Positions 4,052 to 28,690 of a DNA stretch of 37,321 nucleotides are shown piece after piece. Source of the stretch: a virus; IMG/VR virus record IMGVR_UViG_3300023094_000025, positions 1-37,321 of that record; one strand, given 5' to 3'. The translations under genes were made by a program, and so were the position numbers. Numbering within the stretch: the first letter of the stretch is position 1; each line of letters opens with the position of its first letter. The notes below the pieces were generated by a model that was not told the DNA's origin, did not search any database, and saw only the letters and a list, made by a program, of their open reading frames with translations.

Positions 4052-4738
4052 ATGGCACGCATTCGCACGATCAAGCCGGATTTCTGGACCGATGAGAAGG
4101 TCGTCGAGCTTTCCATGGAAGCCCGACTGTTCTTTATTGGCTCATGGAATTTCGCGGACGACTACGGAAACATCCAACGTTCGGCCAAAAAATTGAAGAT
4201 GCAAATTTTCCCGGCGGATGCAATTGACTGCGAACCGCTGATTCAATCACTGATTACTCACGGATTGTTCACTGAGTATGACGTGAATGGCGAAAAGTAC
4301 TTACACATCAAGGGTTTCAAGTCGCATCAGGTCATCAACCGACCATCGAAATCAGGCCTTCCAGCACCGGAATCCGTGCAAGTTCAGTTGCCACTCACTG
4401 AGCCCTCATTGACGGAAGGGAAGGGAAGGGAAGGGAAAGGAAAGGAAAAGGATATGTCCGGTTCACCGGACGTCATCGCAATCCTGGAGCACCTGAACGA
4501 AAAAGCGGGGAAGTCGTACCGACCAGTCGAAGCAAACCTGCGGGTGATCGCTGCAAGACTCGGGGAATCGTCGGTTGCCGAATGCATGGCCGTCATCGAC
4601 GCCAAGGTCAGCGAGTGGCTGCACGACGACAAGATGGCGCAGTACCTGCGTCCGGAGACGCTGTTCGGTGCCACCAAGTTCGCGCAGTACGTCGGCCAGC
4701 TGGGTGCCGGTGGCAACGGCGGAAACGCCTTCGCATGA
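4052..4738 (+). CDS. Phage replication initiator (O-like, Phg_2220_C C-terminus)
   Basis: The 228-aa protein has three parts. The N-terminal domain (1-110) has the winged-helix look of phage replisome organisers (ARIRTIKPDFWTDEKVVELS, then LFFIGSWNFADDYGN). The linker (about 118-135) is low complexity, Gly/Lys/Glu/Arg-rich. The C-terminal domain (about 143-220, ILEHLNEKAGKSYRP and YLRPETLFGATKFAQYV) matches the conserved phage C-terminal domain Phg_2220_C. Such proteins bind the phage origin and load a helicase. The next genes encode a small conserved protein and a RecA-fold helicase, completing a replication module. The DNA coding for the linker is a purine repeat that may itself be the origin, as in lambda O. 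Confidence 0.82.
   Translation: MARIRTIKPDFWTDEKVVELSMEARLFFIGSWNFADDYGNIQRSAKKLKMQIFPADAIDCEPLIQSLITHGLFTEYDVNGEKYLHIKGFKSHQVINRPSKSGLPAPESVQVQLPLTEPSLTEGKGREGKGKEKDMSGSPDVIAILEHLNEKAGKSYRPVEANLRVIAARLGESSVAECMAVIDAKVSEWLHDDKMAQYLRPETLFGATKFAQYVGQLGAGGNGGNAFA
4416..4452 (+). repeat. Purine repeat with four GGG tracts (possible G-quadruplex/origin)
   Basis: GGG runs at 4418-4420, 4423-4425, 4428-4430 and 4433-4435 are each separated by AA, and the purine run continues with GGAAAGG-type units to about 4451. Four G3 tracts with 2-base loops fit the classical intramolecular quadruplex rule. The tract lies in the interdomain linker of the initiator gene, where lambda carries its ori iterons. Confidence 0.55.
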
Positions 4739-15326: not shown

Positions 15327-15988
15327 TGTCGACTGCCTGGACACTGCCGGCGAGGGATATCTGCCAGGACGCGGCTGAGCACATGAACGCCAACGGCGCG
15401 GACGAAACTCTGTCGGCCGAAGACTTCGATGTGCTGTTCCGCGGCTTGCAGGGCATCCTCAAGGAGCTTCCTGTGCACGGCTTTTCCTGGCCGCAAGTGA
15501 CAGTCGATCCTGTCGCTCTCACATGGAGTTCGGGCAGTCCAAGCGTTGTCACGCTGCCGACCGATTATTTCGGCGTGCCGCAGGTGACTTACACGGTGAA
15601 TGGCCAGGATGTGCCGGTTCGCGTCGTGCCGAAGGTGCAATACGACTACCTCAAGAGCCAGTCACTGGTGCCGCCGTTTCCCCGAGTGCAAAGCATTTAC
15701 ATAGCACCGGACTTCTCTGCGCATCTGTGGCCAGTTCCGAGCGTTGATCCGGGCCTGAAATTGACGTATCAGGCCATCGTTCCGGACGCCGTGCAGACAC
15801 AGGCACCGAAACTGCCGCAAACGTGGGTGCTTTTCATCGGGCTGTGGCTGGCTTGGGAATGCTCCAACAAATTCTCGGTGCCAGCGGATCGCCGGGCCGA
15901 TATCCAAGCGCGCTACATGATGAAGCGCGAGTTGATGCTGGGATATGCGACCGAAACCGCGCCAATTCATTTTGAAGTTCGCGACTGA
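15326..15988 (+). CDS. Head-tail connector / tail accessory factor (P22 gp4-like role)
   Basis: The 220-aa product has a helical N-terminus ([16 protein letters not shown], then [20 protein letters not shown]), a central beta-rich part, and a helical C-terminus with a Trp-rich segment ([18 protein letters not shown]). This is the profile of podovirus adaptor proteins that extend the portal. Genomic position after capsid accessory genes agrees. The assignment is by pattern and context. Confidence 0.68.
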
Positions 15989-16010
15989 TAAAACCAAGGA
16001 GAACAAAACC

Positions 16011-16934
16011 ATGAAACGCCTGATTTTCCCCATCCTGCTGATCCTGGCGCTGTTTGCGCAGTCGGCCCAAGCTGTCCCGTATCAACTCCGCGTGAATCAG
16101 CGCGACGCCGGCGACACCTTCTTCAACGCGCGCGACATCGTGAATCCTGCCGGCGGCGCAAATGGCATTTTCGTCTACGACGGCACCGCTCAGCTGCCCA
16201 AATTCTTCACCATCGGCACCGGCCTGCAATGGAATGGCTCGACGCTGGAAGCGCCCGGCGGCGTCGGCCCACAGGGACCCAAGGGTGACCAAGGCGATGT
16301 TGGTCCGCAAGGCCCAGCCGGCCCGACAGGAGCAACCGGTGCCACTGGTTCCCAAGGTCCGCAGGGTGACGTCGGCCCCGCTGGTGCTGCTGGCGCAAAG
16401 GGCGATCAGGGTATTCAAGGAATCCAGGGCATTCAAGGCGTGAAGGGCGACACCGGCGCGACCGGTGCTCAAGGCCCCAAAGGCGATACGGGCGCAACTG
16501 GCTTGCAGGGCTCGACTGGCGCTACGGGCTCTACCGGATCCACCGGGCCTACCGGCGCGACTGGTCCGAAAGGTGATCCCGGCCTGACCGCATTCAGCTT
16601 CCCCGCTGCCCGCACGCTTGCCGTCTCGACCTCCTATCAGGCCAGCGACAACACGAAACCATCGATCCTGACGGTGAGTGCCGGCTGCACCAATGCAACG
16701 ACCGTTGTTGCCGCCAGCGCCTGCACATTGCAAATCCGCATGCATACGTCGGCGGTGACTTGCTCGACCGGCACCGTCTATGCGACATGGAGCAGCACGT
16801 ATGCCCTCGGCCTGCTGCTGACGAATGCCTCGATCTCGCCGATCGACATCAAGCTTCCAGCTGGAGCGTTCTTCATTCTCTGCCCGACGGCCGGCACCTT
16901 CACGATCAACGCTGTTGAGCAGGCGGTGAACTGA
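16011..16934 (+). CDS. Secreted collagen-like (Gly-X-Y) protein
   Basis: The 307-aa product has a clear Sec signal peptide ([21 protein letters not shown], cleavage after AQA), then a short folded region ([17 protein letters not shown]), a collagen-like stretch of about 35 Gly-X-Y triplets (about residues 83-190, [19 protein letters not shown] and on), and a C-terminal domain of about 115 residues with four Cys. Start at 16011 is preceded by AAGGAG. Triple-helical fibres are known on phage heads and tails, but a Sec signal on a virion protein is unusual and Cys in the C-domain fits periplasmic or extracellular folding. It may be a head fibre or a surface moron inside the late operon. Confidence 0.78.
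16255..16585 (+). repeat. Collagen-like triplet repeat region
   Basis: Repeated 9-bp units encoding Gly-X-Y, rich in GGC/GGT codons, with short exact repeats such as the three GIQ-type units near 16407-16440. Regions like this are prone to copy-number change. Confidence 0.75.
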
Positions 16935-16935
16935 A

Positions 16936-17457
16936 ATGTTCAAGGTCAACTACACCGGCCTGTTTGAACTGTCAGCGCGCGCTCCGGCGCCGCTGGTCAG
17001 GATGCGCGGCAGTGAGTTGATCTTCAACACGCACCCAGATCCTGCGGTCATGCGTGCACGAATCACAGATTTTGAGAAGCGCCTGAATGCGCTGTCGGAC
17101 GCCGAAAAGGTGGAATTCGACACAGAAAACACGTTTGTCGACGGCATGCTGGTGCGCAAAATGTTCGCCGAGAAAGACAAGGTAATCGTCGGCAAGGTTC
17201 ACCGGAAGGCGTGCGTCAATTTCGTCGAGTCCGGGGACATGTCGATCATCACTGAGAGCGGCTTTGCCAGGGTCAGGGCCGGCTTCAACGTCATCTCGCC
17301 GGCTGGATTGCAGAAAGTCGGAATCGCGCATGAGGACACCATTTTTATCAACGTCTTTCGCGTCGACGCAACCAATATCGAGGACGCCTTGAAAGAGGTC
17401 GCCTGTGATACCCACGAAGAACTGCACGCGCTTGCAATTGAAGGAGAAAAATCATGA
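16936..17457 (+). CDS. Cupin-like phage protein
   Basis: The 173-aa product has a central beta-barrel pattern: VDGMLVRKMFAEKDKVIVGKVHR, CVNFVESGDMSIITESG, RVRAGFNVISPAGLQKV and HEDTIFINVFR. This is the sequence rhythm of a cupin-fold family I recall as conserved in podovirus genomes, usually annotated hypothetical. Two His (in KVHRK and AHEDT) sit where cupins bind metal, but the full metal set is not complete. Between structural genes it may be a virion component or assembly factor. ATGA couples it to the next gene. Confidence 0.66.
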   Translation: MFKVNYTGLFELSARAPAPLVRMRGSELIFNTHPDPAVMRARITDFEKRLNALSDAEKVEFDTENTFVDGMLVRKMFAEKDKVIVGKVHRKACVNFVESGDMSIITESGFARVRAGFNVISPAGLQKVGIAHEDTIFINVFRVDATNIEDALKEVACDTHEELHALAIEGEKS

Positions 17458-18311
17458 CGGTAACTGCAGTTGCAACTGGGTTAGGCGCGGCCGCTACGGT
17501 TTATGGAGCCAGCCAGGCAGGCAAGGGGGGCGGTGCGCAAGTTGATGCCTCCAATGCCGCCAACCAAGTCTCGCAAGATCAGTACAACCAGACGCGCGCC
17601 GACAACGCAGGAACGATGCTGCGCGGCGAGATGGCGGGCAACAAGCTGCAGGATTTGCTCGGCCTCAGCAGCGAGGCGCAGCGCGCCTATATCCGCGATC
17701 TCAACGACCACGGCTTTGTTATGCCGGAGGGCTGGGTTCCTTATGCAGACAAGCTGCAGGCGTTCATTGATGCCAATCCGCAGTATGACCAAGGTGGCAG
17801 CCTTCTCAAGAACTTCGACGCCAACGACCTTGCCGCTGACCCCATCTACCAGAGCACGTTTCAGACGGCCCTGGAAAACGGCAATGCCGGCATCAACCGA
17901 CTCGGCGCCGCACAAGGCAATTTGAACTCCGGTGCAACGTTGAAAGCCCTGACTAAGTTCGGCGCGAATACAGCGGCGACGTATGGCGCGGATGCCTATA
18001 GCCGCTACACGGCGAATCAGAACAACCAATATAACAAGCTGGCCGGAGTCTCTGGTGCTGGTCAGCAGGCCGTGGGCGCTGTTGGAAGCGCCGGCGCAGC
18101 AAACGCATCCACCATCGGCAACAACCTGATCGGTGCCGGCAATGCGCGCGCGGCCAGCGCCGTCGGTTCAGGCAATGCGCTGACCGGCGGTCTTAGCTCC
18201 ATTGCCAATTACTATCAGCAGAATAAGTTGTTGGATGCGCTGAAAAATAACAATGCCGCTCCCCAGATATTTGGCGCTTCGGGTGGCACAGGATCTTTCA
18301 GCGGCTATTAA
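17454..18311 (+). CDS. DNA ejection/internal virion protein (P22 gp7-like role)
   Basis: The 285-aa product has an N-terminal Gly/Ala-rich hydrophobic segment (VTAVATGLGAAATVYGASQAGKGGG), the hallmark of phage DNA-transfer proteins that insert into membranes. The rest is Asn/Gln/Ala-rich and helical, ending in a Gly/Ser-rich tail (FGASGGTGSFSGY). It starts a block of three large ejection-type genes as in P22 (7-20-16). GAAGGAG precedes the ATG, and the upstream stop overlaps it. Confidence 0.75.
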   Translation: MTVTAVATGLGAAATVYGASQAGKGGGAQVDASNAANQVSQDQYNQTRADNAGTMLRGEMAGNKLQDLLGLSSEAQRAYIRDLNDHGFVMPEGWVPYADKLQAFIDANPQYDQGGSLLKNFDANDLAADPIYQSTFQTALENGNAGINRLGAAQGNLNSGATLKALTKFGANTAATYGADAYSRYTANQNNQYNKLAGVSGAGQQAVGAVGSAGAANASTIGNNLIGAGNARAASAVGSGNALTGGLSSIANYYQQNKLLDALKNNNAAPQIFGASGGTGSFSGY

Positions 18312-18320
18312 GGAAAAATC

Positions 18321-19550
18321 ATGCCAATCGACGCAAATATCCTTCTCCAGCAGCAGCCAATCCAGCTGCCGAACGTGCTCGCCGGCGCAGGCCAAATCGC
18401 GCAGATCCAAGGCGCGCAGCAACAGAACCGGCTGGCTCAGTTGCAGTACGACCAGGCGCAGCGTACCGAGCAGCAGCAGATCGGGCTGGGCAACGCATAC
18501 AAAGACGCCTTCGATCAAGACACCGGAAAGCTGGACTCGACAAAGTTGATCGGCTCGCTGGCGACCGGCGGCTACGGCGCAGCTATTCCCGGCGTACAGA
18601 AGAGCCTGAACGAGCAGCAAAAGGCTCAGGCGGAATCGCAGAAAGCGCAGCTTGAGGTACACGGTCAGCAACTTGGCCTCATCGGCCAGGTTATGGGCGC
18701 CGTGAAGGATCAGGGCAGCTACGATGCTGCCGTATCGTATCTTCGCAGCCATATCCCGGATGGAGGCAAGGACTTGCCAACCGTCTACGATCCCAACACA
18801 GTGCAGCAAGTGGTTACGCGTGCGCTGACGACTCAGCAGCAGGTCGCTAAGCAGCAGAAGGATCTTGACTACGCGCTGAACGTGCGTCAACAGACAGAGG
18901 TTGAGCGCAACAACCAGGCCAACAACAAGGTGGCGCAGGGTCAACTCGGCGTCGCGCAGGGCCAGCTTGGCGTGTCCCGCGATCGCCTCAACTTCGATAA
19001 AGACCAGCCAAAGGGTATTTACGACAAGGATAGCGCAATCATTGTGGATCCGCGCACCGGCCAGTCTCGTCCTGTCACGGATCAGAATGGTAATCCGATC
19101 ACACCAGCCGGCGGCAAGCCATCGGGCGAATATCTAAAGCAAGCGACAGCCTATCGAAACATGGATGACGCGCTGACGAATTACAAGAATGTTCTCGGCA
19201 ACTTCACCAAAGTGGATGCACTCAGCCCTGAAAAACGCGCCGGGTTGAATACCGCCTACCAAAATATGATGCTGCAGGCAAAAGAGATGTACAACCTGGG
19301 CGTACTGAATGGCGGCGATGAGCGAATTCTGACGTCGATCGTCAACAATCCTCTCGATCTATCCAAGGCACTCGTCCCAACGCAGGCGCTGCTTAAGCAA
19401 GCAAGCGACTTGCAAGGCATCGTCAAAAAGAACAATGAGAATTTGGCGACCGTGAATAAGCAGAAGGCGATTCCGCTGAAATCGGAGGCCACTCAGCCAG
19501 CCAGCGTCCCGGACGACATCAACAGTCTGCTCAACAAATACGGGAAGTAA
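18321..19550 (+). CDS. Internal virion/ejection protein, Gln-rich
   Basis: The 409-aa protein starts MPIDANILLQQQPIQLPNVLAGAGQ after AAGGA. It is Gln/Ala/Leu-rich and helical, with repeated QLGVAQGQLGVSRDRL-type segments near the middle (about residues 205-225). The C-terminal part has alternating charged helices. Composition and the position between two hydrophobic ejection proteins match the second ejection protein of P22-like phages (gp20-like role). Confidence 0.72.
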   Translation: MPIDANILLQQQPIQLPNVLAGAGQIAQIQGAQQQNRLAQLQYDQAQRTEQQQIGLGNAYKDAFDQDTGKLDSTKLIGSLATGGYGAAIPGVQKSLNEQQKAQAESQKAQLEVHGQQLGLIGQVMGAVKDQGSYDAAVSYLRSHIPDGGKDLPTVYDPNTVQQVVTRALTTQQQVAKQQKDLDYALNVRQQTEVERNNQANNKVAQGQLGVAQGQLGVSRDRLNFDKDQPKGIYDKDSAIIVDPRTGQSRPVTDQNGNPITPAGGKPSGEYLKQATAYRNMDDALTNYKNVLGNFTKVDALSPEKRAGLNTAYQNMMLQAKEMYNLGVLNGGDERILTSIVNNPLDLSKALVPTQALLKQASDLQGIVKKNNENLATVNKQKAIPLKSEATQPASVPDDINSLLNKYGK

Positions 19551-19552
19551 CC

Positions 19553-21250
19553 ATGGCCGACCGCGATCAGCTTTACACGGCTTTGCGCAACGCAGATGCT
19601 GCCGGCGACGTAGAAGGTGCGCGCAAGCTGGCGGCGTATATCCAGTCGATGCCGGCGGATGCCGCGCCGAAGACGCCAGAGAAATCGTTTCTTCGTCAGG
19701 CCGGCGACGCTGTGGTCAATACCGGAATGGGCGTCGCGCGCGGCGTCAAGGATGTCATCGACACCGGTGCGCAGCTGCTTTCCAGCGGATTCGATAAGGT
19801 TGCTGGAACCAATGAGGGCGAGCGCGTGCGCGCCATGAATACCGCCGGCAATCAAGAATTCAACCGTGATTACGGCGACAGCACGGCAGCAAGCGTCGGG
19901 CGGGTGGGCGGTAACGTGCTCGCCACGCTGCCTGTTGGCCCTGCGCTCGGTGCCGCAGTGCGCATTGCTGCACCGGCAGCATCTGGCTTGGCAAGCGCAC
20001 TGGCAACCAGTGGCATGCGTGCCGGTAGCACACCTGGCGCCCTCAACATGCTCACACGTATTGCGGGCGGCGCAGGCACGGGCGCGGCTTCGGCGGCGCT
20101 GGTGAACCCAGATGATGCGGGAACCGGGGCGGTCATTGGTGGCGCGTTGCCTCCTGTTCTGGGTGCTGTCGGAAAGATCGGCAGCAAGATCGGCCAGGTC
20201 ATCGCGGGCCCAGGCGTGACGCCTGATGCTCGCGCAGGTATCGACGCCGCACGCGCTTCCGGCTATGTCATCCCCCCATCTCAAGCGAACCCTACATTGG
20301 CAAATCGTTTGCTCGAAGGGTTCTCAGGAAAAATTTCTACTGCGCAGAATGCGAGCGCGAAGAATCAGGAAGTGACAAACGGCATGGTGAAGCAAGCACT
20401 CCAACTGCCGGCCGATGCCCCTATCACGCTCGATGCGTTGAAGGCGGCACGCCAGCAGGCCGGTGCTGCATACGATGCCATTGGCAGCACCGGCACGATT
20501 ACGCCTACGCAGGCATACAGCGATGCGCTGGATCAGATTGTCGCGCAGTCGAAGAAAGCGGCATCAGGCTTCCCGAACGCGAAGCCTAGCCCAATTATTT
20601 CCGAGATCGATTCATTGCGTAGCCCGCAGTTCGATGCCGATTCTGCATTGTCGAAAATCAAGGAATTGCGCGGCATGGCTGACTCGGCATACGCCAAGGG
20701 CGACAAGGATCTCGGGAAGGCACTGAAATCTGGCGCTTCGGCACTTGAGGATGCCGTCGACACCCACCTGCAAACGATCGGTGCGCCGGCAGACATGCTC
20801 GACCAGTTCCGGCAGGCGCGGCAGTTGATCGCAAAAACTTACAGCGTTGAGAAGGCGCTGAATCCGGCGTCCGGAAACATTGACGCGGCGAAACTGGCCG
20901 CAGACCTGAAAAAAGGTAGGCCACTCACAGGCCAACTGCGCGACGTCGCTGAATTCAGCTCTCAGTTCCCGAAGGCTGCTCAGTCGGTAGACAAAATGGG
21001 GAGTTTGCCACAGGTATCGCCATTGGACTTTTTTGGCGCTGGAACCGCAAGTGTAGCTACCGGGAATCCCTTGGCTATGGCAGCGGTAGCGGCGCGGCCT
21101 GCTGCGCGTGCGGCGGCTCTATCACCATTCGTGCAAAACCGCTTAGCGGCCCAACCGACGGCGCCAGGCATCGTCAATCAGTTGGCGACTTCGCCCGCTC
21201 TGCAGCAGCTTCTGTATCGCGGCGCACCTCTTCAAGCGAACGGCCGGTAA
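19553..21250 (+). CDS. Ejection protein with glycine-zipper membrane segments (gp16-like role)
   Basis: The 565-aa protein has a soluble N-terminus (MADRDQLYTALRNADAAGD) and, from about residue 120 to 225, Gly/Ala-rich hydrophobic segments (VLATLPVGPALGAAV, AGGAGTGAASAALVNP, AVIGGALPPVLGAVGK) that look like membrane-inserting glycine zippers. A long helical C-terminal part follows. The expected role is to enter the host envelope with the DNA. The last 25 codons overlap a convincing minus-strand gene. Confidence 0.75.
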   Translation: MADRDQLYTALRNADAAGDVEGARKLAAYIQSMPADAAPKTPEKSFLRQAGDAVVNTGMGVARGVKDVIDTGAQLLSSGFDKVAGTNEGERVRAMNTAGNQEFNRDYGDSTAASVGRVGGNVLATLPVGPALGAAVRIAAPAASGLASALATSGMRAGSTPGALNMLTRIAGGAGTGAASAALVNPDDAGTGAVIGGALPPVLGAVGKIGSKIGQVIAGPGVTPDARAGIDAARASGYVIPPSQANPTLANRLLEGFSGKISTAQNASAKNQEVTNGMVKQALQLPADAPITLDALKAARQQAGAAYDAIGSTGTITPTQAYSDALDQIVAQSKKAASGFPNAKPSPIISEIDSLRSPQFDADSALSKIKELRGMADSAYAKGDKDLGKALKSGASALEDAVDTHLQTIGAPADMLDQFRQARQLIAKTYSVEKALNPASGNIDAAKLAADLKKGRPLTGQLRDVAEFSSQFPKAAQSVDKMGSLPQVSPLDFFGAGTASVATGNPLAMAAVAARPAARAAALSPFVQNRLAAQPTAPGIVNQLATSPALQQLLYRGAPLQANGR

Positions 21251-21332
21251 TTGCGGAAAAGATGAGATTGCCGAAGAAGGCAAGCAGCACCAACACGATG
21301 AACTTAGCAACCATGTAACCAGTGAAGTCCAT
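21174..21332 (-). CDS. Antisense small membrane protein inside the late operon
   Basis: A 52-aa frame on the minus strand starts with ATG at 21332, seven bases after AGGTGG. It encodes a textbook single-pass membrane protein: a short N-terminus (MDFTGYMVAK), a hydrophobic helix (FIVLVLLAFFGNLIFSA), then a charged helical tail (RSLEEVRRDTEAAAERAK). Its last 77 bp overlap the end of the ejection-protein gene on the other strand. It fills the otherwise empty gap 21251-21355. It is the only minus-strand gene in the late region. A TATGAT at 21373-21368 could be its -10. Role unknown; a lysogen-expressed exclusion or antisense control function is possible. Confidence 0.62.
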   Translation of the reverse strand: MDFTGYMVAKFIVLVLLAFFGNLIFSAITGRSLEEVRRDTEAAAERAKSPTD

Positions 21333-21355
21333 GCCGGGCCACCTGAAAGAGAAAA

Positions 21356-22993
21356 TTGGATAGCCAGATCATACCGCTTTTCGGTCTTGGAAACAGCAGC
21401 CGGTCACCATATGTGAGCGCGCAGCGGCGCATCGGCTGCTATGCCGAGGTGTCCGCGCAACCGGATAAGACGAATGTGGCGTTCTACAGCATGCCTGGCA
21501 TGACCCTGTTCACCGATTTTGGCGACACGCCACCGCGCGGCATGCTGGGATACAAGGACTTCATGTACGTGGTGCATCGCGGCACCTTCTACGAGGTCAA
21601 CAACGCCGGCGTGCGCACACCGCGCGGCACGATCGGCACTACCTCCGGACGCGTGCAGATGTCGCAGAATGGGCAGCAGATCGGCCTGGCGGACGGCGCC
21701 AACGGCTACATGTACACGCTTGACCGGGGCGCCCGCACGATCCTGTCGCTGACCAACGTGGGAACGACTGCAACGCTCAAGACGACCGCCCCGCATGGGC
21801 GCCATACCGGTGAGACGATCATCATGACCGGCGCCACGCCAGCGGCATATAACGGCTCCTTCGCGGTAACCGTGGTCGACGCCACCACGATGACCTACAC
21901 GATGCTGTCGAATCCTGGTGGCAGTGCTACGGTGCTTGGTGCGTATGCCGTGGATTCTTCCTTCACCCGCGTAACATCAGGGCTGTTCGTGACTCCGTTC
22001 GACATCACCTGGGGCAAGCACGTATTCATCTGGGGCTTTAATGACAGCGGCGTCTTCCAGTTGTCGGCCATCGATGACGGCACGCAGGCGGATGCTCTTG
22101 ACTTCGCCGAGGCTGAGTCTGAGCCGGACAAGTTGATGCGCGTCATGTTCGATCATGGCGAGCTGGTGCTCCCGGGTACCGATACATGCGAATACTGGGG
22201 CGCGAGCAGCGGTGATTTCCTGTTTTCGAATCAGCCAGGCTCAGAGTCAGAATTCGGATTGGCCGCCTCTTTCTCGCTGACCAAATACAACGATTCGTTG
22301 ACCGGCCTGATGCGCAACAAGCTCGGGCAGGTCCAAGTGATGATGCTGCAGGGGCATACGTGGACGCCGATAAACGGGACCGACCTCAATTTCGTCAACG
22401 AAATCAACAGCTACGCGGCCGTATCCGACGCAACGGCATTCGCCTACAACCTGGGCGGCCATCCGATGTATCAGATCAACTTCCCGACAGCCGGCAAGAG
22501 CTGGTTTTACGATGCCGCAAGCGGGGACTGGTCCGAGATTCAGTCAGGTCTGAGTGGCGGCCGGCACCGTGGCGAGATGTGCGTCAACTATCTGAACAAG
22601 CCGCGCATCAGCGACTACCAGAACGGCAAGATTTACACGTTGGATCCGACTGTCCCGACTGATAACGGCATGCCGCGCCCTTGGGAGATGACCAGCCGCC
22701 ACCTGTTCCGCGATCTGAACGACTTCCGCACCGGCGCGATCTTCCTCGACTTCGAGGTCGGCGTCGGCCTGATCAGCGGGCAGGGCAGCGACCCGCAGGT
22801 GATGTTGCAGGTCTCGCGCGACAACGGCAAGACATGGGGCAATGAGCTCTGGCGCTCGCTGGGCAAAATTGGCCAGTACCGGCGCCGCGTGGTGTTCCGC
22901 CGCCTCGGTCGTGGCCGCGACTTTGTATTCCGGCTGCGCGTCACCGATCCGGTGAATGTCGTGCTGGCTGCTGCAGGAGTGATGGCCGAATGA
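21356..22993 (+). CDS. Packaged-DNA stabilisation / tail protein (P22 gp10-like role)
   Basis: The 545-aa protein begins at a TTG (21356) after GAAAGAG; the next in-frame ATG is 45 codons later and would remove a conserved-looking start (DSQIIPLFGLGNSSRSPYVSAQRRIGCYAE). The body is a beta-propeller-like series of FGDTPPRGML, VVHRGTFYEV, GLADGANGYMYTL and HPMYQINFPTAGKSWFYD segments, matching phage stabilisation proteins that plug the portal and form the tail hub. The C-terminus (VGLISGQGSDPQVMLQVSRD, then NELWRSLGKIGQYRRR) is typical for this family. Confidence 0.83.
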   Translation: MDSQIIPLFGLGNSSRSPYVSAQRRIGCYAEVSAQPDKTNVAFYSMPGMTLFTDFGDTPPRGMLGYKDFMYVVHRGTFYEVNNAGVRTPRGTIGTTSGRVQMSQNGQQIGLADGANGYMYTLDRGARTILSLTNVGTTATLKTTAPHGRHTGETIIMTGATPAAYNGSFAVTVVDATTMTYTMLSNPGGSATVLGAYAVDSSFTRVTSGLFVTPFDITWGKHVFIWGFNDSGVFQLSAIDDGTQADALDFAEAESEPDKLMRVMFDHGELVLPGTDTCEYWGASSGDFLFSNQPGSESEFGLAASFSLTKYNDSLTGLMRNKLGQVQVMMLQGHTWTPINGTDLNFVNEINSYAAVSDATAFAYNLGGHPMYQINFPTAGKSWFYDAASGDWSEIQSGLSGGRHRGEMCVNYLNKPRISDYQNGKIYTLDPTVPTDNGMPRPWEMTSRHLFRDLNDFRTGAIFLDFEVGVGLISGQGSDPQVMLQVSRDNGKTWGNELWRSLGKIGQYRRRVVFRRLGRGRDFVFRLRVTDPVNVVLAAAGVMAE

Positions 22994-23370
22994 TCAGTCA
23001 ACCACGCAACCAAGAAGACTTGCCGGTAGCTGGCAACTTCGCCAAGTTCACCAACGGCTGGATCCAGTGGTTCAAGGAAGTCAGGGAAGGGCTGAATGGG
23101 CTGCTGGGCGGAATGAGCGCCACCGCGCGCGCCTCGTTCACCCTCACGTTCATCAACGTGCCGCTCGGCAGCAATTTGGCGATGACGGCCGATGCAGCAG
23201 GTGCCAAGGTCGGAGATTTCGTAGTGCTGATGCCGTCCATGTCAACCGTCGGGCTGATATTCAGCGGCACCGTGCTGACAGATGACGTGGTCACCGTCTA
23301 CGCCCAGAACTACACAACAGACACCGTATCGAGCCCGGCTATTTCGTTCGATGCACTTTTCATCCGATAG
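22990..23370 (+). CDS. Small tail-associated protein
   Basis: The 126-aa product starts MISQPRNQEDLPVAGNFAKFTNGWIQWFKEV, a helical start, followed by a beta-rich region (FTLTFINVPLGSNLAMTADAAGAKVGDFVVLMP) common in short podovirus proteins encoded between gp10-like and fibre genes. ATGA overlaps the upstream stop. It may attach the fibre or cap the tail. Confidence 0.65.
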   Translation: MISQPRNQEDLPVAGNFAKFTNGWIQWFKEVREGLNGLLGGMSATARASFTLTFINVPLGSNLAMTADAAGAKVGDFVVLMPSMSTVGLIFSGTVLTDDVVTVYAQNYTTDTVSSPAISFDALFIR

Positions 23371-23378
23371 GGGGCATC

Positions 23379-25163
23379 ATGCCAGCAGTGAAATTCAGCC
23401 CGGTCCTCAATGACCAGATCATTACCGCAACCGGTGCGCCGGCGGTCGGGTGGAAGATTCTGTCCTACCAGGCCGGGACATCAACGCCACTGGCGACTTA
23501 CACCACCAGCACCGGGAATGTCGCGCATGGTAACCCAGAGCAAATTGACACGCTCGGATACGTCCAGCAAGGCCCTCTGTGGCTGGAGTCCGGCAAGTCC
23601 TACAAGCTGGTTCTGACTGACGCGAACGACGCCGTGCAAAAGACGATCGACAACGTCTCTGGCGTCAACGACACCTCGACCAGCACATCCGAATGGATCG
23701 ATACCGGGCTGACGCCGACCTACATTTCCGTCAATTCCTTCTCCGTCCAAGGCGACCAGACCAGCACGTACCATGTTGGCCGCCGTATGAAGTTTCAGAC
23801 GACCGGCGGCACCGTCTACGGCCGCATCGTGACATCGCTGTTTGCGAGCAGCATTACCACTGTCACGATGAAGATGGACGGCACGCAGGTACTCGATTCC
23901 GGCCTATCAGTGGCACAGCCGTCATTCCTGCGCGCTGACGTCCTGGCGCTCCCTGAGCGCATCGCCACGACGGCCGGCACAGACGCCTACACTGCCACCA
24001 TCGGTATCGCGCGCAACGTGCAGGGAGCCGAATACAAGATCAAGTTTGCGAACTCGAACAGAATCATCAACCCGACGCTACAGCTCGATGCCGGCGGCGC
24101 GCTCCCCATCGTTTCTACGAGCGGGAGCGCACTGAGCATCGGCGCGTTGAACGGCGAGCACATTATTCGAGATGACGGCGGCACCAATTACATTCTGCTG
24201 AACCCGGCCATCAGTTACGTGCCGCGAGGCTTCATCGATGGCCTGACGCTTTCGACGGCCGGCGCGTCTGCCACGATGGGTATTTCAGCCGGCGCGGCGC
24301 TGGATAGCACCAACCTGGCGCTCATGGTGCTGGGTACTGCTATGACCAAGACGGCAGCGGTATGGGCGCTCGGCACCGGTGTCGGCGCATTGGATGCCGG
24401 CACGATCCGCAATTCCGCCCTCGGTGCGACATGCTCGTTTGCGACCAACATCATGACTTGTACGGTCGCACCGACGTCCGGCACCTTTCAGGTTGGGCAG
24501 GAGATCAAGGCTGAAGGTATTCCTCCGGGGACAACGATCTCTTCGCTCGGTACAGGCGTCGGTGGCACAGGCACCTACAACCTGTCTACATCTCCCGGGA
24601 CGCTTGCCGCGCGCCCAGCAGAGGGTATGAGCTGGTATCACTGGTTCCTGATCAGAAACTTGGTTTCGAATATTGTTGATCTTCTTTTTTCTCTATCACC
24701 GACCGCCCCAACACTGCCACCCAATTACACCGTGTCACGCCGGATCGGCTCTGCAAAGACAAACGGATTATCGCAATGGACGAAATTCATTCAAAACGGT
24801 GACTACTTCGAGTTGGATGTGCCGACGATTGATATTTCCGCGAGCGTGTTGGGCGCAGGATCAAGAACGCTGGTCAACAGCGGGGCTCCGACCGGCATTA
24901 CAGCGGAAGCCTTGTTTTACTTTCAATTGGTCAGCTCCGGTAGCAATGTGCGTGCACTCTTGAGCAATCCAGCGACTACCGACAACGCAGTCGGCAACAA
25001 CAATGCATCAATGACGACCGCCAATACCTCGAATGCCATCGGCGGCGGACAAGTCCGATGCCGGACAAATAGCAGCGCTCAGGTTGGCGTGCGCGGGGAT
25101 TCGGGCGCCACATATTTCCTTTCAACTTTGGGCTGGACTGACCAGCGCGGTAAGAACGCATAA
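23379..25163 (+). CDS. Tail fibre / receptor-binding protein
   Basis: The 594-aa product has the typical N-terminal fibre anchoring domain (MPAVKFSPVLNDQIITATGAP, GWKILSYQAGTSTPLATYT, GKSYKLVLTDAND). A beta-rich shaft follows, then a C-terminal receptor-binding part with WYHWFLIRN and a Gly/Asn/Ser-rich tail. A module of about 73 residues (about 345-417, CSFATNIMTCT and GTGVGGTGTYNLS) appears inserted into a motif that normally reads as one unit (GTIRNS…WYHWFLI). No endosialidase or pectate-lyase-like catalytic pattern is obvious. The AT content rises near 24660-24700, fitting mosaic exchange of host-range modules. Confidence 0.8.
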   Translation: MPAVKFSPVLNDQIITATGAPAVGWKILSYQAGTSTPLATYTTSTGNVAHGNPEQIDTLGYVQQGPLWLESGKSYKLVLTDANDAVQKTIDNVSGVNDTSTSTSEWIDTGLTPTYISVNSFSVQGDQTSTYHVGRRMKFQTTGGTVYGRIVTSLFASSITTVTMKMDGTQVLDSGLSVAQPSFLRADVLALPERIATTAGTDAYTATIGIARNVQGAEYKIKFANSNRIINPTLQLDAGGALPIVSTSGSALSIGALNGEHIIRDDGGTNYILLNPAISYVPRGFIDGLTLSTAGASATMGISAGAALDSTNLALMVLGTAMTKTAAVWALGTGVGALDAGTIRNSALGATCSFATNIMTCTVAPTSGTFQVGQEIKAEGIPPGTTISSLGTGVGGTGTYNLSTSPGTLAARPAEGMSWYHWFLIRNLVSNIVDLLFSLSPTAPTLPPNYTVSRRIGSAKTNGLSQWTKFIQNGDYFELDVPTIDISASVLGAGSRTLVNSGAPTGITAEALFYFQLVSSGSNVRALLSNPATTDNAVGNNNASMTTANTSNAIGGGQVRCRTNSSAQVGVRGDSGATYFLSTLGWTDQRGKNA

Positions 25164-25172
25164 GGGAGCGCC

Positions 25173-25487
25173 ATGGCAACGGGGGATAAAAAAAGCTGGT
25201 TCGATCCGAAGATCAGTTGGCAAACGGTGATAGCTGCGGTGCTGGCCGCATCAAGCGCTGCTGGCTGCGTGAATTCAAGCTACTCAAGCGCGGTTGAGCG
25301 CATCACCAAACTTGAGCAGCATGACGCATCTCAGGATCAGCACTTTCAGCAGATCGAAAAAACGATCGACCAGCAGCGCGGGGACATGAAGGAGCAGCTC
25401 GGGACCATCGCGGGCGACGTGAAGGATATCCGGAAATATTTGATGGACCGGCAGCAGCCAGCCGCACTTGGAAGGTGGACGAAATGA
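25173..25487 (+). CDS. Membrane-anchored coiled-coil protein of the lysis cassette
   Basis: The 104-aa product has one N-terminal hydrophobic segment (ISWQTVIAAVLAASSAAGC) followed by coiled coil (SAVERITKLEQHDASQDQHFQQIEKTI). This signal-anchor plus coiled-coil layout occurs in phage lysis accessory proteins and antiholins. A Cys after SAAG gives a weak lipobox-like ending. GGGAG precedes the ATG; ATGA couples it to the holin gene. A role in holin control or as spanin-like partner is possible but unproven. Confidence 0.66.
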   Translation: MATGDKKSWFDPKISWQTVIAAVLAASSAAGCVNSSYSSAVERITKLEQHDASQDQHFQQIEKTIDQQRGDMKEQLGTIAGDVKDIRKYLMDRQQPAALGRWTK

Positions 25488-25753
25488 AGAATCTGCTCAT
25501 AGGTGGTTGGGGCGAGATCAAGAAACTGTGGTCGGTTTGGATTGGCGTGATCGGCGCCGCGGCATTGGCCGGCATCCCGGCGCTTGATGCGCAATGGCCG
25601 AACCTGGCGCCGAGCCTGATCGCCTTCTTCCCGAAGAACGGTCAGCAGTGGGTACCGGTCATCGGCGCGGTGGTCGCTATCCTGGCCCGCATCGTCAGCC
25701 AGAGCGCGGTGATCGATCTGATCAAGAAGGCATTTTCGAAGGAGTCGCCATGA
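25484..25753 (+). CDS. Putative holin, two membrane segments
   Basis: The 89-aa protein has two hydrophobic segments (SVWIGVIGAAALAGIPAL, about residues 18-35, and VPVIGAVVAILARIVSQ, about 57-73), with a charged C-terminus (DLIKKAFSKESP). Size, topology and position directly before a lysis-type gene and Rz/Rz1 fit a class II or pinholin-type holin that permeabilises the inner membrane at the end of infection. The start overlaps the previous stop (ATGA). A longer in-frame start at 25475 is possible. Confidence 0.75.
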   Translation: MKNLLIGGWGEIKKLWSVWIGVIGAAALAGIPALDAQWPNLAPSLIAFFPKNGQQWVPVIGAVVAILARIVSQSAVIDLIKKAFSKESP

Positions 25754-26151
25754 GACTCGTCCTACAGCGAGGCGTCAGCACCAGCAAGAGCACGCCCGGA
25801 AAGCTATTCGTGGATGGAAAATTCGAATGCCACACGCTGGAAGATGTGGTGCGGCCGGCGGGCGTGAAGGTCTACCGCAAGACCGCCATACCGGCCGGAT
25901 CCTACTCGGTTCTGCTGACCGAATCGCCGCGTTTCAAGCGCGTGCTGCCGTACCTGGCCAAGGTGCCGAACTTCGAAGGCATCCGCATTCACCCGGGCAA
26001 CAAGGCCGAGGACACCGATGGTTGCATCCTGGTCGGCGACGCACCGGCGCCGGACTGGTTGGGGCAGAGCAAGGTCGCCTTTGATAGGCTGTTCGCCAAG
26101 CTGCTGGCAGCCAAGGACGGCATCGTCATCGACGTGCTGGCGGCATCATGA
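25750..26151 (+). CDS. DUF5675-type protein, lysis-gene candidate
   Basis: The 133-aa protein opens MRLVLQRGVSTSKSTPGKLF and contains CHTLED, PAGSYSVLLTESPRF, IRIHPGN (H81) and DTDGCILVG (C92). These are the diagnostic segments of DUF5675 phage proteins. His and Cys in the order IxIHxGN…DTxGCIxxG resemble the active-site layout of YkuD L,D-transpeptidases (HG…S/HxGC). It sits exactly where the endolysin lies in a holin-endolysin-Rz-Rz1 cassette, and no lysozyme, amidase or transglycosylase is found elsewhere. A peptidoglycan-active enzyme is therefore a good hypothesis, not a demonstrated function. It has no signal peptide. Confidence 0.72.
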   Translation: MRLVLQRGVSTSKSTPGKLFVDGKFECHTLEDVVRPAGVKVYRKTAIPAGSYSVLLTESPRFKRVLPYLAKVPNFEGIRIHPGNKAEDTDGCILVGDAPAPDWLGQSKVAFDRLFAKLLAAKDGIVIDVLAAS

Positions 26152-26420
26152 TGACCCTGATCCTACAGTTCGGCCCATGGCTGCTGGGCATCCTCGGGCT
26201 GGTGTTCGGGCTGTTCAAGCACCAGCAAACCAAGACCGTCAAGGCCGAGGCAAAGCAGCAGGTCGCCGAGGCGAACGCCAAGATCGATCAGGGCAATACC
26301 GCTGCCGCGCAATCTGGCGCCGCCGCCGTTCAGGAGAGAATCCATGTTGAAAACGATATTGCTGCCCGGCCTGCTGACGACTCTGCTCAGCGCCTGCGCG
26401 ACAACTGGTCCCGCGACTGA
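26148..26420 (+). CDS. Rz: Rz-like inner-membrane spanin subunit
   Basis: The 90-aa product has an N-terminal hydrophobic helix (LILQFGPWLLGILGLVFGLF) followed by a helical periplasmic region rich in Lys/Ala/Gln (TKTVKAEAKQQVAEANAKIDQG). Such an i-spanin would span the inner membrane and pair with the outer-membrane lipoprotein encoded by the gene overlapping its 3' end. The start overlaps the upstream stop (ATGATG). Sequence identity of spanins is low, so the call is by topology and cassette position. Confidence 0.75.
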   Translation: MMTLILQFGPWLLGILGLVFGLFKHQQTKTVKAEAKQQVAEANAKIDQGNTAAAQSGAAAVQERIHVENDIAARPADDSAQRLRDNWSRD

Positions 26421-26571
26421 GCCGCAGACCCGGATCATCGACACCGGCTGCGACTGGACCAGGCCAATCTACATCAGCAAGCAGGACATCATGACCGATG
26501 GGACCGCCGACGCCATCCTGGCGCACAACCTGACCGGCGCCGCCCGCTGTGGCTGGAAGCCAAAAAAATAA
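26344..26571 (+). CDS. Rz1: Rz1-like outer-membrane lipoprotein, overlapping Rz
   Basis: The 75-aa product starts inside the Rz-like gene in the +1 frame (77 bp overlap), the typical Rz/Rz1 arrangement. The signal peptide MLKTILLPGLLTTLLSAC ends in lipobox L15-S-A-C18 with Ala at +2. The mature part has two more Cys and TGCDWTRPIYISKQDI, a motif I know from small proteins at the end of phage lysis cassettes and not the Pro-rich Rz1 of lambda. Spanin role is likely but the mature domain is atypical. GGAGAG precedes the ATG. Confidence 0.72.
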   Translation: MLKTILLPGLLTTLLSACATTGPATEPQTRIIDTGCDWTRPIYISKQDIMTDGTADAILAHNLTGAARCGWKPKK

Positions 26572-26581
26572 AGGTGGAAAT

Positions 26582-27037
26582 ATGGCATCGAACGACGGTT
26601 TGAACTTACTCGCTATGCTGTCAACGCAGCCGCAAGTGGACTCCGGTGTAAATTATCTGGCAAGAAATCGCCTCTACTCTCAACCCGCGCCCGTGATGTC
26701 CGGGTATTTGACGAAACTGGACCCTTTGCAAGAATTGGCCTTTCAGCAATGGGTGAAAGAAAATAAAATTCCTTTCGACCCCACCCCCACAGCAGACTAC
26801 GACATGCGCGGATATTACAAATCCATCCAAGGCATGAACAAACTGGCGCAGGCCAGCATCAATGCCAACGATGGCCAAATCCATTTCCCCGATACATTCA
26901 AGACCCCGTACCATGAATCATTCTCCGCCGAGAGTAAATTTGCAGCACCAGGCGCACCCACATGGAATGATCTCGACCAGCTCGTAACGCCAAACGCAAA
27001 AATTGTGTACGACGAGCGGAAAGCAAACGGAAAGTAA
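26582..27037 (+). CDS. Conserved late phage protein of unknown function
   Basis: The 151-aa product contains LQELAFQQWVKENKIPFDP, DYDMRGYYKSIQ, IHFPDTFKTPYHESFSAESKFA and PTWNDLDQLV, segments I recognise as conserved in a family of podovirus virion-associated or late proteins of unknown function. The start at 26582 follows GGTGG; an upstream in-frame ATG at 26549 overlaps the Rz1-like gene. It is the last gene of the late operon before the LexA box. Confidence 0.73.
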   Translation: MASNDGLNLLAMLSTQPQVDSGVNYLARNRLYSQPAPVMSGYLTKLDPLQELAFQQWVKENKIPFDPTPTADYDMRGYYKSIQGMNKLAQASINANDGQIHFPDTFKTPYHESFSAESKFAAPGAPTWNDLDQLVTPNAKIVYDERKANGK

Positions 27038-27044
27038 GCTGCGC

Positions 27045-27066
27045 TATACTGTATCTCCATACAGTG
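27045..27066 (+). promoter_or_regulatory. LexA (SOS) box over a -10 element
   Basis: CTGT (27049-27052), eight bases and ACAG (27061-27064) form CTGT-N8-ACAG inside a 20-bp palindrome (27047-27066) that agrees with the E. coli/betaproteobacterial LexA consensus at all core positions. A TATACT at 27045-27050 overlaps it and fits a -10 element, so bound LexA would block transcription of the gene at 27074. No good -35 is visible. Confidence 0.85.
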
Positions 27067-27073
27067 AAACGCC

Positions 27074-27331
27074 ATGAAAAAGCTGCGCCCACCGATCGAG
27101 TACAAACGCCTGAGAGACCTGGCTGCCGAGAATAAAGACCCGGTGGTGCAGGAGCTTCTTTGGGAAATTAAGCGGCTGCACCACATGCTGGCTCTCGACC
27201 TGCGCGGCATCGAGCAGATCCGGGATATCTGGGCAAAGGAAGTCGGCGGCAACTTGGCGGCAATTCATGAGATGCGTATGCGGCTGAAAGAGGAGCCGGC
27301 GGCGATTGAGTGGAAGAGCGACGAAAAATAG
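27074..27331 (+). CDS. LexA-controlled 85-aa protein, antirepressor candidate
   Basis: The product starts MKKLRPPIEYKRLRDLAAEN and continues with helical, charged segments (PVVQELLWEIKRLHHMLALD, AAIHEMRMRLKEEP). It resembles a small conserved phage family without assigned function. It lies alone between the late operon and the attachment site, directly behind a consensus LexA box, so it should be induced by DNA damage. The repressor of this phage lacks a visible autocleavage domain, so a LexA-controlled antirepressor (the role of Tum in coliphage 186) is an attractive hypothesis. No Shine-Dalgarno is visible; the predicted leader is about 17 nt. Confidence 0.72.
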   Translation: MKKLRPPIEYKRLRDLAAENKDPVVQELLWEIKRLHHMLALDLRGIEQIRDIWAKEVGGNLAAIHEMRMRLKEEPAAIEWKSDEK

Positions 27332-27583
27332 ATCGTCCAAAATACAGGTGTAAGTCGTTGTTTTGTATAGTGCCGTACAGTGCTGTATAGACAATCAATC
27401 AGGTCGAATAAAATCTAACTAAATACCTGATTTATTTGAAGAAACTGGCGTTCATCCTACGTTGCGACGGGTTGAACATCGGTATGCCGGAAAGCCTTTA
27501 CTGGTGCGGGCGTTTTGGATTCTTCCAAAATTCGTCCAAAATTATTCCAAAGAGACGAGGTGTCGACGCTGACCTCGACACCT
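27332..27583. other. Probable attP region with integrase-type repeats
   Basis: This non-coding stretch of about 250 bp lies between the last rightward gene and the 3' end of int, the usual attP place. The 11-bp TCGTCCAAAAT occurs at 27333-27343 and 27532-27542, with related TTCCAAAAT and ATTCCAAAG copies at 27523-27550; these look like arm-type integrase sites. TGTATAG is directly repeated 20 bp apart (27364-27370, 27384-27390). AATCAGGT (27397-27404) and ACCTGATT (27425-27432) form an inverted repeat. The crossover core cannot be identified without the host attB, and no tRNA 3' end is obvious. Confidence 0.62.
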
Positions 27584-27590
27584 CTATTTT
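27557..27590 (+). terminator. Terminator between late operon and int
   Basis: GAGGTGTCGA (27557-27566) and TCGACACCTC (27575-27584) form a perfect 10-bp stem with an 8-base loop, followed by TATTTT on the plus strand. It would stop rightward late or SOS transcription before it runs antisense into int. The int stop codon TAG lies in the base of the stem. Confidence 0.8.
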
Positions 27591-28690
27591 ACCGAAACTT
27601 CGAGATACCCTGTTCCGCGCAAGTCATCGTAGATCGCGGTTGTCTTTGCTTCCTTGTGGCCCAGCAGCGCTTGGACGAAGTCGCCGTCGTGTTGCTCCTT
27701 GTACAATCTTTCAGCGAGTGACCGGATTTCGTGGAACGTCACTGGCGTCTTTTCTGTGCCGGGTACGACACCGGCGAACTTCCGTGCCGCCCGGAATGCA
27801 TCCGTGATCCCTTGCGGCGTCGCAGGATCGCCTGGCTTGTTCATCCCGCGCGTGCGGACATGGTGAACCATATGCTTGCTCAGGACGCTATCCCGGCATA
27901 AGCGGATAGCCTCATCGATCGACATCCCGAACTTGTCCAGCCGAATGCTGGTGTTGATTTTCAGCTTGGTCTTGCCGCCGCCCTTCCTCTGCGCAACCAA
28001 CAGATAGCCGTCGGCCACATCAGAAAATAGCATATTTGCAATATCGTCCCGGCGCTGGCCGGTGGTCAGGGCAAGGTTCATGGCGTTTTTCAACCACGGA
28101 ACAGCCTTTTCCCTGATCGCCAAGAATGCCTCCAGCGTCAGCCGGTCGCGCGTCGGCTCGTATTCCGGCGTGTACGTGACCAGCACGGGATTCGAACCGT
28201 TGGGGATCAGTCCCTTGGTCTCCGCGGTGCGGAATGCATCGGAGATCCGCGAGCGGATATTGATGATGGTGCTGGTGCCGCGCACGCCGTCGAGCGAATC
28301 CAGGTGGTCCGAAATAATCTGCGATGTGATCTCTCGTAGCGGCATCCAGGCCCATTTCGTTTCCTTGAGCTCGGCGATATACATCCGCCCGATGCGCAGG
28401 GTATTTGCGGCCGGCTTCTCGCGCTTGATCCAGATCGGCTCATACTCGACCAACCAGTCCTTGAACGACAACTGCGGCTTGTTCGTGATCCAGTCGATCA
28501 GGCTGGTTTCCGCAATCTTGTCCAGTTCGGCGTTGGCGGCTCGCGCCTGACGAAATGCATCAGCGCGGTCCCGGCCAAGACCCTTAGTCTTCCCGTTGCG
28601 CGGATTCCGGTACCAGAAATATCCGTCAGCCTTGCAATACAGGTTGTCGGGAAATCCTTTGCGCGATGAAATGCGTCGACGTGCGTTCAT
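27584..28690 (-). CDS. int: Tyrosine-recombinase integrase
   Basis: The 368-aa protein has an N-terminal arm-binding domain (SSRKGFPDNLYCKADGYFWY and GKTKGLGRDRADAFRQA), a core-binding SAM-like domain (about 75-165), and a catalytic domain. The catalytic residues are all present: R213 (TGQRRDDI), K236 (QRKGGGK), H320 and R323 (FHEIRSLAERLY), H345 (LLGHKEAKT) and Y354 (AIYDD). It is last in the early left operon and points into the probable attP. The ATG overlaps the excisionase stop (ATGA), so the two are translated together. Confidence 0.92.
   Translation of the reverse strand: MNARRRISSRKGFPDNLYCKADGYFWYRNPRNGKTKGLGRDRADAFRQARAANAELDKIAETSLIDWITNKPQLSFKDWLVEYEPIWIKREKPAANTLRIGRMYIAELKETKWAWMPLREITSQIISDHLDSLDGVRGTSTIINIRSRISDAFRTAETKGLIPNGSNPVLVTYTPEYEPTRDRLTLEAFLAIREKAVPWLKNAMNLALTTGQRRDDIANMLFSDVADGYLLVAQRKGGGKTKLKINTSIRLDKFGMSIDEAIRLCRDSVLSKHMVHHVRTRGMNKPGDPATPQGITDAFRAARKFAGVVPGTEKTPVTFHEIRSLAERLYKEQHDGDFVQALLGHKEAKTTAIYDDLRGTGYLEVSVK

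Follow-up and report, generated by a model that had tools for sequence, protein, structure and literature searches.

The endolysin of a temperate phage is very probably a DUF5675 protein, predicted to be a soluble, cytoplasmic cysteine enzyme of the YkuD fold that a holin releases and that would cut peptidoglycan cross-links. The protein lies between a holin and a pair of spanins, takes the place that a lambda R-type endolysin or a lysozyme-like protein holds in sibling phages, and is predicted to share its fold with L,D-transpeptidases.

A DUF5675 gene in a phage lysis cassette

The phage is temperate and of the short-tailed type. The window, meaning the whole stretch of DNA analysed here, is a 37,321-base IMG/VR virus record that encodes an SU10-type portal and adaptor, a P22-type head-closure protein, an ejection protein, RecT and an integrase. 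A DNA-level megablast of window positions 17000-27500 matched no phage. The window also holds a collagen-repeat tail-fibre gene at 15945-16931 on the + strand (PF01391, E 1.1e-16). The lysis cassette and the integrase are placed as follows.

25173..25487, + strand: protein of 104 aa, possibly a second lysis protein of the membrane, weakly XhlA-like (PF10779, E 0.0026, below the cut-off; phrog_1296 holin, E 0.0047)
25475..25753, + strand: holin, 92 aa (phrog_1356 holin, E 2.4e-13; PF25612 DUF7940, E 3.8e-11; hydrophobic segments)
25739..25744, + strand: AAGGAG, probable ribosome-binding site for DUF5675 translation (from the sequence)
25750..26151, + strand: DUF5675 protein, 133 aa, likely endolysin, predicted to hydrolyse peptidoglycan and to have the YkuD fold (PF18925, E 5.8e-32; AlphaFold2 model; VIA-align; no hydrophobic segment over threshold)
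25990..25992, + strand: codon of H81, predicted catalytic histidine (119 of 120 family sequences; hhalign pairing with the YkuD His)
26023..26025, + strand: codon of C92, predicted catalytic cysteine (120 of 120 family sequences; hhalign pairing with the YkuD Cys)
26148..26420, + strand: Rz-like inner-membrane spanin, 90 aa (phrog_1026, E 9.6e-9; N-terminal hydrophobic segment)
26344..26571, + strand: Rz1-like outer-membrane lipoprotein spanin, 75 aa, in another frame and overlapping Rz (phrog_1275, E 2.4e-24; lipobox LSAC in the translation)
27587-28690, - strand: integrase

The 133-aa protein is a clear member of a family named for its lack of assigned function. It scores 110.4 bits against the Pfam profile PF18925 (DUF5675; cut-off 26.7) and also matches phrog_1501, labelled 'unknown function' (E 1.3e-20); NCBIfam has no family for it or for three other DUF5675 proteins. 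The translation of 25750-26151 contains both IRIHPGN and DTDGCILVG. Translation likely starts at 25750, judging by the AAGGAG close upstream; a longer in-frame ORF from 25594 runs into the holin gene, out of frame with it. The start overlaps the holin stop by four bases (ATGA), and the same ATGA overlap joins the end of the DUF5675 gene to the start of the Rz-like gene. The closest relatives in bacterial genomes, at 65-74% identity (L093-L096), are from Herbaspirillum, which suggests a Burkholderiales host. These homologues, the profile match and the conserved start signals rule out a chance ORF in this position.

The protein has the traits of a holin-dependent endolysin. None of its 19-residue segments exceeds 1.6 on the Kyte-Doolittle scale, so it should stay in the cytoplasm until the holin acts. 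Solubility without a signal peptide is canonical for such endolysins, and so is a place in a lysis cassette with a holin and spanins.

No other wall enzyme was found in the window. A Pfam scan of all 131 ORFs of at least 90 aa returned, among the matches listed, no candidate peptidoglycan enzyme except the DUF5675 ORF; 129 of the 131 were scanned together with 25 families listed, and a family matching less well than E 0.0095 may have gone unlisted. Whole-record searches of the window for GH24, amidase_2, phrog_90, M15_4, GH108, phrog_3108 and SLT gave no match. The DUF5675 protein itself matched none of the known endolysin families GH24, lambda R-type phrog_90, amidase_2, M15_4 and GH108; the only family over its cut-off was DUF5675. 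On the ORF scans, as far as their matches were listed, and these seven whole-record searches, we reject the idea that the window encodes a canonical endolysin at some other position.

Wall enzymes replace DUF5675 in sibling phages

Sibling phages carry other proteins at the same position. Searches of viral contigs for relatives of the Rz1 and holin genes yielded seven sibling loci, none of which contains DUF5675. One of them, L185, has the order 104-aa gene, holin, X, Rz, Rz1, with every flanking gene related to its counterpart in the window; here the X position is held by a lambda R-type endolysin (PDB 1am7, E 1.4e-39; phrog_90, E 2.8e-48). L184 begins like L185, and its contig ends after X. 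Four further loci, L179-L182, have phrog_3108, labelled 'unknown function', as X in the slot, the holin match in L179 being weak (E 0.0011). Relatives of the 104-aa gene precede the holin in L180, L181, L182, L184 and L185. The L183 record also encodes phrog_3108, far from the Rz1 match and outside the slot.

Structure prediction places phrog_3108 among the glycosidases. Its model (pLDDT 90.1) gave 36 VIA-align rows, 35 of them lysozyme-superfamily enzymes or close glycosidases and the last a chitosanase at Z 2.3. The 35 include a muramidase (Z 10.1, 118 residues, 2.7 Å), GH19 enzymes, MltE and phiKZ gp144. On this model, phrog_3108 is probably an unnamed endolysin family. Its members (L182:5287-5778, and the same slot in L179-L181) have an invariant Glu in a QES motif.

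Comparing the cassettes of the window, L185 and L179-L182 reveals three unrelated proteins alternating in one slot, the other two of which are wall enzymes or resemble them. DUF5675 thus stands where related cassettes have a lambda R-type endolysin (L185) or phrog_3108 (L179-L182). The first-pass annotation had described a protein with IRIHPGN and DTDGCILVG motifs between holin-like and Rz/Rz1-like genes, had assigned it the endolysin slot, and had seen no other endolysin in the window. The translation, the PF18925 match and the PHROG matches of the flanking genes bear out the first point; the second is upheld by the slot swap and by the failure to find other families of endolysin; and the third agrees with the scan of 131 ORFs, among the matches listed, and with the whole-record searches.

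Records with DUF5675 lack the canonical endolysin families searched for. We compared 44 virus records of at least 30 kb that carry DUF5675 (the window and 43 of 46 IMG/VR records, with L019, L020 and L056 left out) with 26 records of 30-90 kb picked irrespective of DUF5675 content from 31 listed records of at least 30 kb (five above 90 kb were left out, and L243 and L264 are equal in length and may be duplicates). DUF5675 occurs in 44 of the 44 chosen records and in none of six sibling records. GH24, amidase_2, phrog_90, M15_4 and phrog_3108 were each found in 0 of the 44, and GH108 exceeded its cut-off in none, with one sub-threshold match. Five of the six siblings carry phrog_3108 and the remaining one phrog_90; in one of the six, a 1558-aa ORF matches GH24 as well. 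GH24 appears in five of the 26 arbitrary records and amidase_2 in three others, giving 0/44 versus 8/26 for these two families (Fisher P 1.7e-4) in records that may be incomplete. SLT domains occur in four of the 44 DUF5675 records, within ORFs of 782-824 aa that are probably virion enzymes, with a helper role possible.

A predicted YkuD fold with a His/Cys motif

The predicted structure of the DUF5675 protein is that of a YkuD-fold enzyme. AlphaFold2, given an alignment of 120 family members, produced a model with a mean pLDDT of 96.7 and a pTM of 0.89. Foldseek against the PDB found no match at E 0.001, and its top rows were unrelated (RNase E, E 0.03); the fold assignment rests on VIA-align realignment of Foldseek's top 1000 PDB chains, not on the Foldseek ranking. 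Of 40 VIA-align entries listed, 39 are YkuD-fold L,D-transpeptidases or L,D-carboxypeptidases at Z 6.3-10.4 (8.0-10.4 in 33 rows and 6.3-7.9 in six more), and the last is unrelated (Z 2.0). Pgp2 is the best match (Z 10.4, 110 residues, 2.7 Å). The others include Tlde1a (Z 9.3, 99 residues, 2.4 Å, 23% identity), Csd6 (Z 9.2, 109 residues, 2.9 Å), Bacillus subtilis YkuD (Z 8.8, 95 residues, 2.9 Å), DpaA (Z 8.7, 108 residues, 2.6 Å) and LdtMt2 (Z 8.5, 99 residues, 3.2 Å). Several of these best matches use the same fold to hydrolyse rather than to cross-link. Pgp2 is a hydrolytic L,D-carboxypeptidase; Csd6 and Tlde1a are described as such in published work.

At the level of sequence, homology to YkuD is weak. 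The YkuD profile PF03734 does not match the DUF5675 protein at E up to 1, the Tlde1 domain PF10908 reaches 13 bits over the HPGN...GC region (E 0.15; cut-off 30.1), and a PDB sequence search with the first DUF5675 alignment returned no relevant relative. An hhalign comparison with 13 host YkuD domains pairs IRIHPGN...DTDGCI with YIHG...SHGCV at P 0.018; among 60 column-shuffled controls, one equalled the score of the real pairing. Candidates for the His...(S/T)-x-Gly-Cys motif are H81 and T-D-G-C92, with the second His mostly replaced by Glu or Asp. The two residues are 11 apart, a shorter spacing than in YkuD, for which PMC9638812 gives the motif HXX14-17(S/T)HGC.

The two predicted catalytic residues are conserved in nearly all of the family sequences collected. 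Of 120 sequences, 119 have H81 and 120 have C92, counts that are partly biased by searches using patterns around these residues. Because those patterns contained the His/Cys region, named-phage proteins found without them provide a fairer check: His and Gly-Cys are kept in all six, from crAss001, VA7, PCA1, phi39:1, VA-RY-3 and Dulem virus 260. The initial remark that the His/Cys spacing recalls YkuD is supported by the predicted fold, with 39 of the 40 listed chains YkuD-like in the comparison that the first-pass annotation had called for. The hhalign motif pairing is weak, the PF03734 match is missing and the spacing is shorter.

DUF5675 adjoins lysis-type genes in diverse phages

Lysis-type neighbours are enriched around DUF5675 genes in viruses. 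Across 78 viral loci (13 of 91 were dropped for missing flanks, and loci were not dereplicated), 57 have a small membrane ORF immediately before the gene and 52 an Rz-like ORF immediately after it; 39 have both, and 13 have an overlapping ORF for a lipoprotein. The corresponding counts for 171 size-matched control ORFs from the same loci are 35, 19, 7 and 0. Among 72 bacterial-genome loci (8 of 80 dropped for the same reason, again without dereplication) they are 26, 25, 15 and 5, and for 121 genome-locus controls 19, 12, 3 and 1. The pattern is thus absent from most genome loci, 57 of the 72 being without paired holin-like and Rz-like neighbours.

Isolated phages show the same arrangement. 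The gene adjoins membrane lysis-type genes in crAss001, VA7, PCA1, phi39:1 and the Mu-like martha 12B12. VA7 has a 3-TM ORF before DUF5675 and an N-terminal-TM ORF after it; in PCA1 and phi39:1 the gene is preceded by small membrane-type ORFs and followed by Rz-like ones. Our scan of 98 of the 99 annotated CDS of phi39:1 and VA-RY-3 covered the best 25 of 44 families, and weaker wall-enzyme matches are possible there.

Beyond these cassettes, DUF5675 appears in several other settings. Nitrosospira and Nitrosovibrio genes (L099, L101, L102, L105, L106, L112) sit in a chromosomal neighbourhood that is no phage lysis cassette; in most of these loci a kinase-like gene precedes DUF5675, and signal-peptide and multi-TM ORFs follow it. 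Perhaps these genes encode a wall enzyme that has been domesticated, or part of a pair resembling effector and immunity protein. In Hymenobacter (L098, L107, L111, L116, L126), inspection by eye places DUF5675 near S49/ClpP-type head-protease-like ORFs and a conserved protein of about 400 aa with a GRGGLGRQ motif, with a lipoprotein-like ORF downstream in some; these loci look more like prophages or phage-tail-like elements than plain chromosome. DUF5675-like domains are also present in large phage proteins of BFVD, namely A0A1L7N1E2 (a 1251-aa piece from Ralstonia phage RP31) and A0A8S5VTR0 (868 aa), which are possibly virion-associated lysins. Microviruses usually lyse their hosts without a wall enzyme of this kind. 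Dulem virus 260 (L178), a 6405-base ssDNA microvirus with seven genes, has a DUF5675 gene at 3649-4041, followed directly by a 71-aa ORF at 4038-4253 with a membrane segment and a lipobox-like site.

A proposed route to lysis

We propose that the DUF5675 protein is an L,D-endopeptidase-type endolysin. We hold its endolysin role to be highly probable and, granted that role, YkuD-type cysteine chemistry as predicted from the model to be more probable still; cleavage of cross-links rather than trimming of stems is the somewhat favoured activity. Most likely the enzyme cuts L,D peptide bonds in cross-links, the exact bond being a prediction. At the end of infection, the holin would let the soluble enzyme into the periplasm, a step for which it is presumably needed. 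C92, activated by H81, would attack stem peptides at the carbonyl on the L-centre of diaminopimelate-3, the position at which YkuD enzymes form their acyl-enzyme. Where the leaving group is D-Ala4 (or diaminopimelate) of a neighbouring stem, the same chemistry would cut a 4-3 (or 3-3) cross-link. Water rather than a second stem would resolve the acyl-enzyme, favouring hydrolysis over transpeptidation, and in a wall deprived of its cross-links the Rz/Rz1 spanins could disrupt the outer membrane. For Clostridioides difficile LdtCd2/3, PMC12729407 reports L,D-endopeptidase activity. Set against cross-link cutting is pure L,D-carboxypeptidase activity, which would trim stems only and would not lyse the cell.

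Alternative explanations

Two alternatives keep the protein in lysis and give the cutting of the wall to others. The DUF5675 protein might be an L,D-carboxypeptidase or D-amino-acid exchanger like Tlde1a or Csd6, trimming or poisoning stems while host synthesis and hydrolases finish lysis and leaving the cross-links uncut itself. Its nearest structures, Pgp2, Tlde1a and Csd6, are L,D-carboxypeptidases, crAss members are annotated as L,D-carboxypeptidase/transpeptidase, and Tlde1a is described as acting on cells through carboxypeptidase and exchange activity. We nevertheless judge this account unlikely: DUF5675 replaces glycosidase endolysins in the same cassette, the window has no second wall enzyme among the matches listed, and mere trimming would leave the spanins caught in the peptidoglycan meshwork, from which the established model of lysis demands their release. 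A role like that of DpaA, detaching outer-membrane anchors from peptidoglycan and working with the spanins while another enzyme cuts the wall, would suit both the gene's place beside Rz/Rz1 and the structural comparison, in which DpaA (Z 8.7, 108 residues) is one of the best matches. It is very improbable, however, given that the listed matches include no other wall enzyme in the window, that wall glycosidases fill the slot in siblings, and that DUF5675 is also found in Bacteroides phages and ssDNA microviruses.

Other accounts remove the protein from lysis. Several ORFs of the window belong to no family, and the SLT domains mentioned above lie in large ORFs of 4 of the 44 DUF5675 records; the real endolysin might be such an unrecognised protein (26549-27037, for example, or a virion protein), with DUF5675 an accessory gene in the cassette by chance. 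Two different wall enzymes nevertheless take the exact slot in siblings and never coincide with DUF5675 (0 of 44 records), and lysis neighbours recur in unrelated phages, which makes a hidden endolysin quite unlikely. That DUF5675 is a general peptidoglycan-modifying gene, serving superinfection exclusion or wall remodelling and found in lysis cassettes only secondarily, would fit the Nitrosospira and Nitrosovibrio copies beside a kinase-like gene and secreted or membrane ORFs, as well as the 57 of 72 genome loci that fail the neighbour test. We give it hardly any weight against the viral loci, where both lysis-type neighbours occur in 39 of 78 cases as opposed to 7 of 171 controls. A holin-dependent endolysin remains our preferred reading.

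Relation to known enzymes and earlier proposals

DUF5675 combines features of several known systems. With the YkuD L,D-transpeptidases (PF03734) it has in common the predicted fold (B. subtilis YkuD and the Ldt enzymes of mycobacteria score Z 8-8.8) and, going by the weak hhalign pairing, perhaps a His followed by [S/T]-x-G-Cys; it differs in having no profile match, signal peptide or anchor, in its phage cassette and in its predicted hydrolytic action. Csd6 of Helicobacter pylori and Pgp2 of Campylobacter jejuni, best or near-best matches to the model, likewise put the fold to hydrolytic use, but they are secreted, shape-determining cell enzymes with extra domains and strip D-Ala, whereas the DUF5675 protein by our proposal lyses the cell. 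Tlde1 (PF10908) effectors, L,D-carboxypeptidase/exchange enzymes of type VI secretion, have a similar His-Cys spacing (H121 and C131) and differ in their delivery by a secretion system; DUF5675 falls below the Pfam cut-off of their family. The canonical endolysins of Gram-negative phages (lambda R, T4 e/GH24, amidase_2, M15, GH108) occupy the same slot between holin and Rz/Rz1, with folds unrelated to the DUF5675 model.

The idea of such an endolysin already existed for single phages. A phage Mu paper (PMC9239132, mBio 2022) proposed, from synteny, that the endolysin of Vibrio phage martha 12B12 is a soluble protein weakly similar to L,D-transpeptidases; that proposal concerns a single Mu-like phage, and the available text contains neither a link to DUF5675 nor an activity test. 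VPCG_00031 (L335:23132-23554) is the only DUF5675-profile match in the martha 12B12 record (E 5.8e-10), so the proposed endolysin very probably belongs to the same family. In GenBank, crAss-like and Bacteroides phage homologues are named L,D-carboxypeptidase/transpeptidase, by annotation only. One of them, crAss001 gp30, is homologous to the window protein (tblastn E 2e-21) and is encoded a short way behind two genes whose annotations read 'lysis regulatory protein' and 'lysis regulatory protein/holin'. The crAss001 paper assigns three genes to lytic functions, and the main text, as available, does not name the L,D-carboxypeptidase/transpeptidase (PMC6235969). Within the open-licence literature searched, the passages retrieved mention DUF5675 only as a listed domain in genome papers; we found no paper there on PF18925 or phrog_1501, and none joining crAss-like phages, carboxypeptidase/transpeptidase and lysis. 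The suggestion in the first-pass annotation of a distinct class of phage lysis enzyme is a fair description of an idea that is half in print for crAss-like phages and martha 12B12. What we add is the identity of the family, a test at the level of the fold, the swap in the slot and the statistics on mutual exclusion.

DUF5675 may be a large, unnamed class of endolysins. To our knowledge, all other endolysins belong to the glycosidases, the amidases or the peptidases of metallo or NlpC type; we are aware of no characterised endolysin class with the L,D-transpeptidase fold and of no characterised endolysin inactivated by carbapenems. More tentatively than for the single protein, we suggest that the family as a whole uses this fold and a catalytic cysteine to cut 4-3 and 3-3 cross-links, serves tailed phages of Proteobacteria and Bacteroidota as well as some ssDNA microviruses, and is inactivated by carbapenems. 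If so, a fold that normally makes cross-links would have been put to use for lysis, a new chemical solution to the problem, and PF18925, still called a family of unknown function, and phrog_1501 would gain a function. The proposal would also explain how crAss-like phages and many Vibrio and Bacteroides phages lyse their hosts, and it predicts lysis enzymes that are sensitive to carbapenems. The slot held by DUF5675 and its predicted fold point to a little-studied route by which viruses leave the cell.
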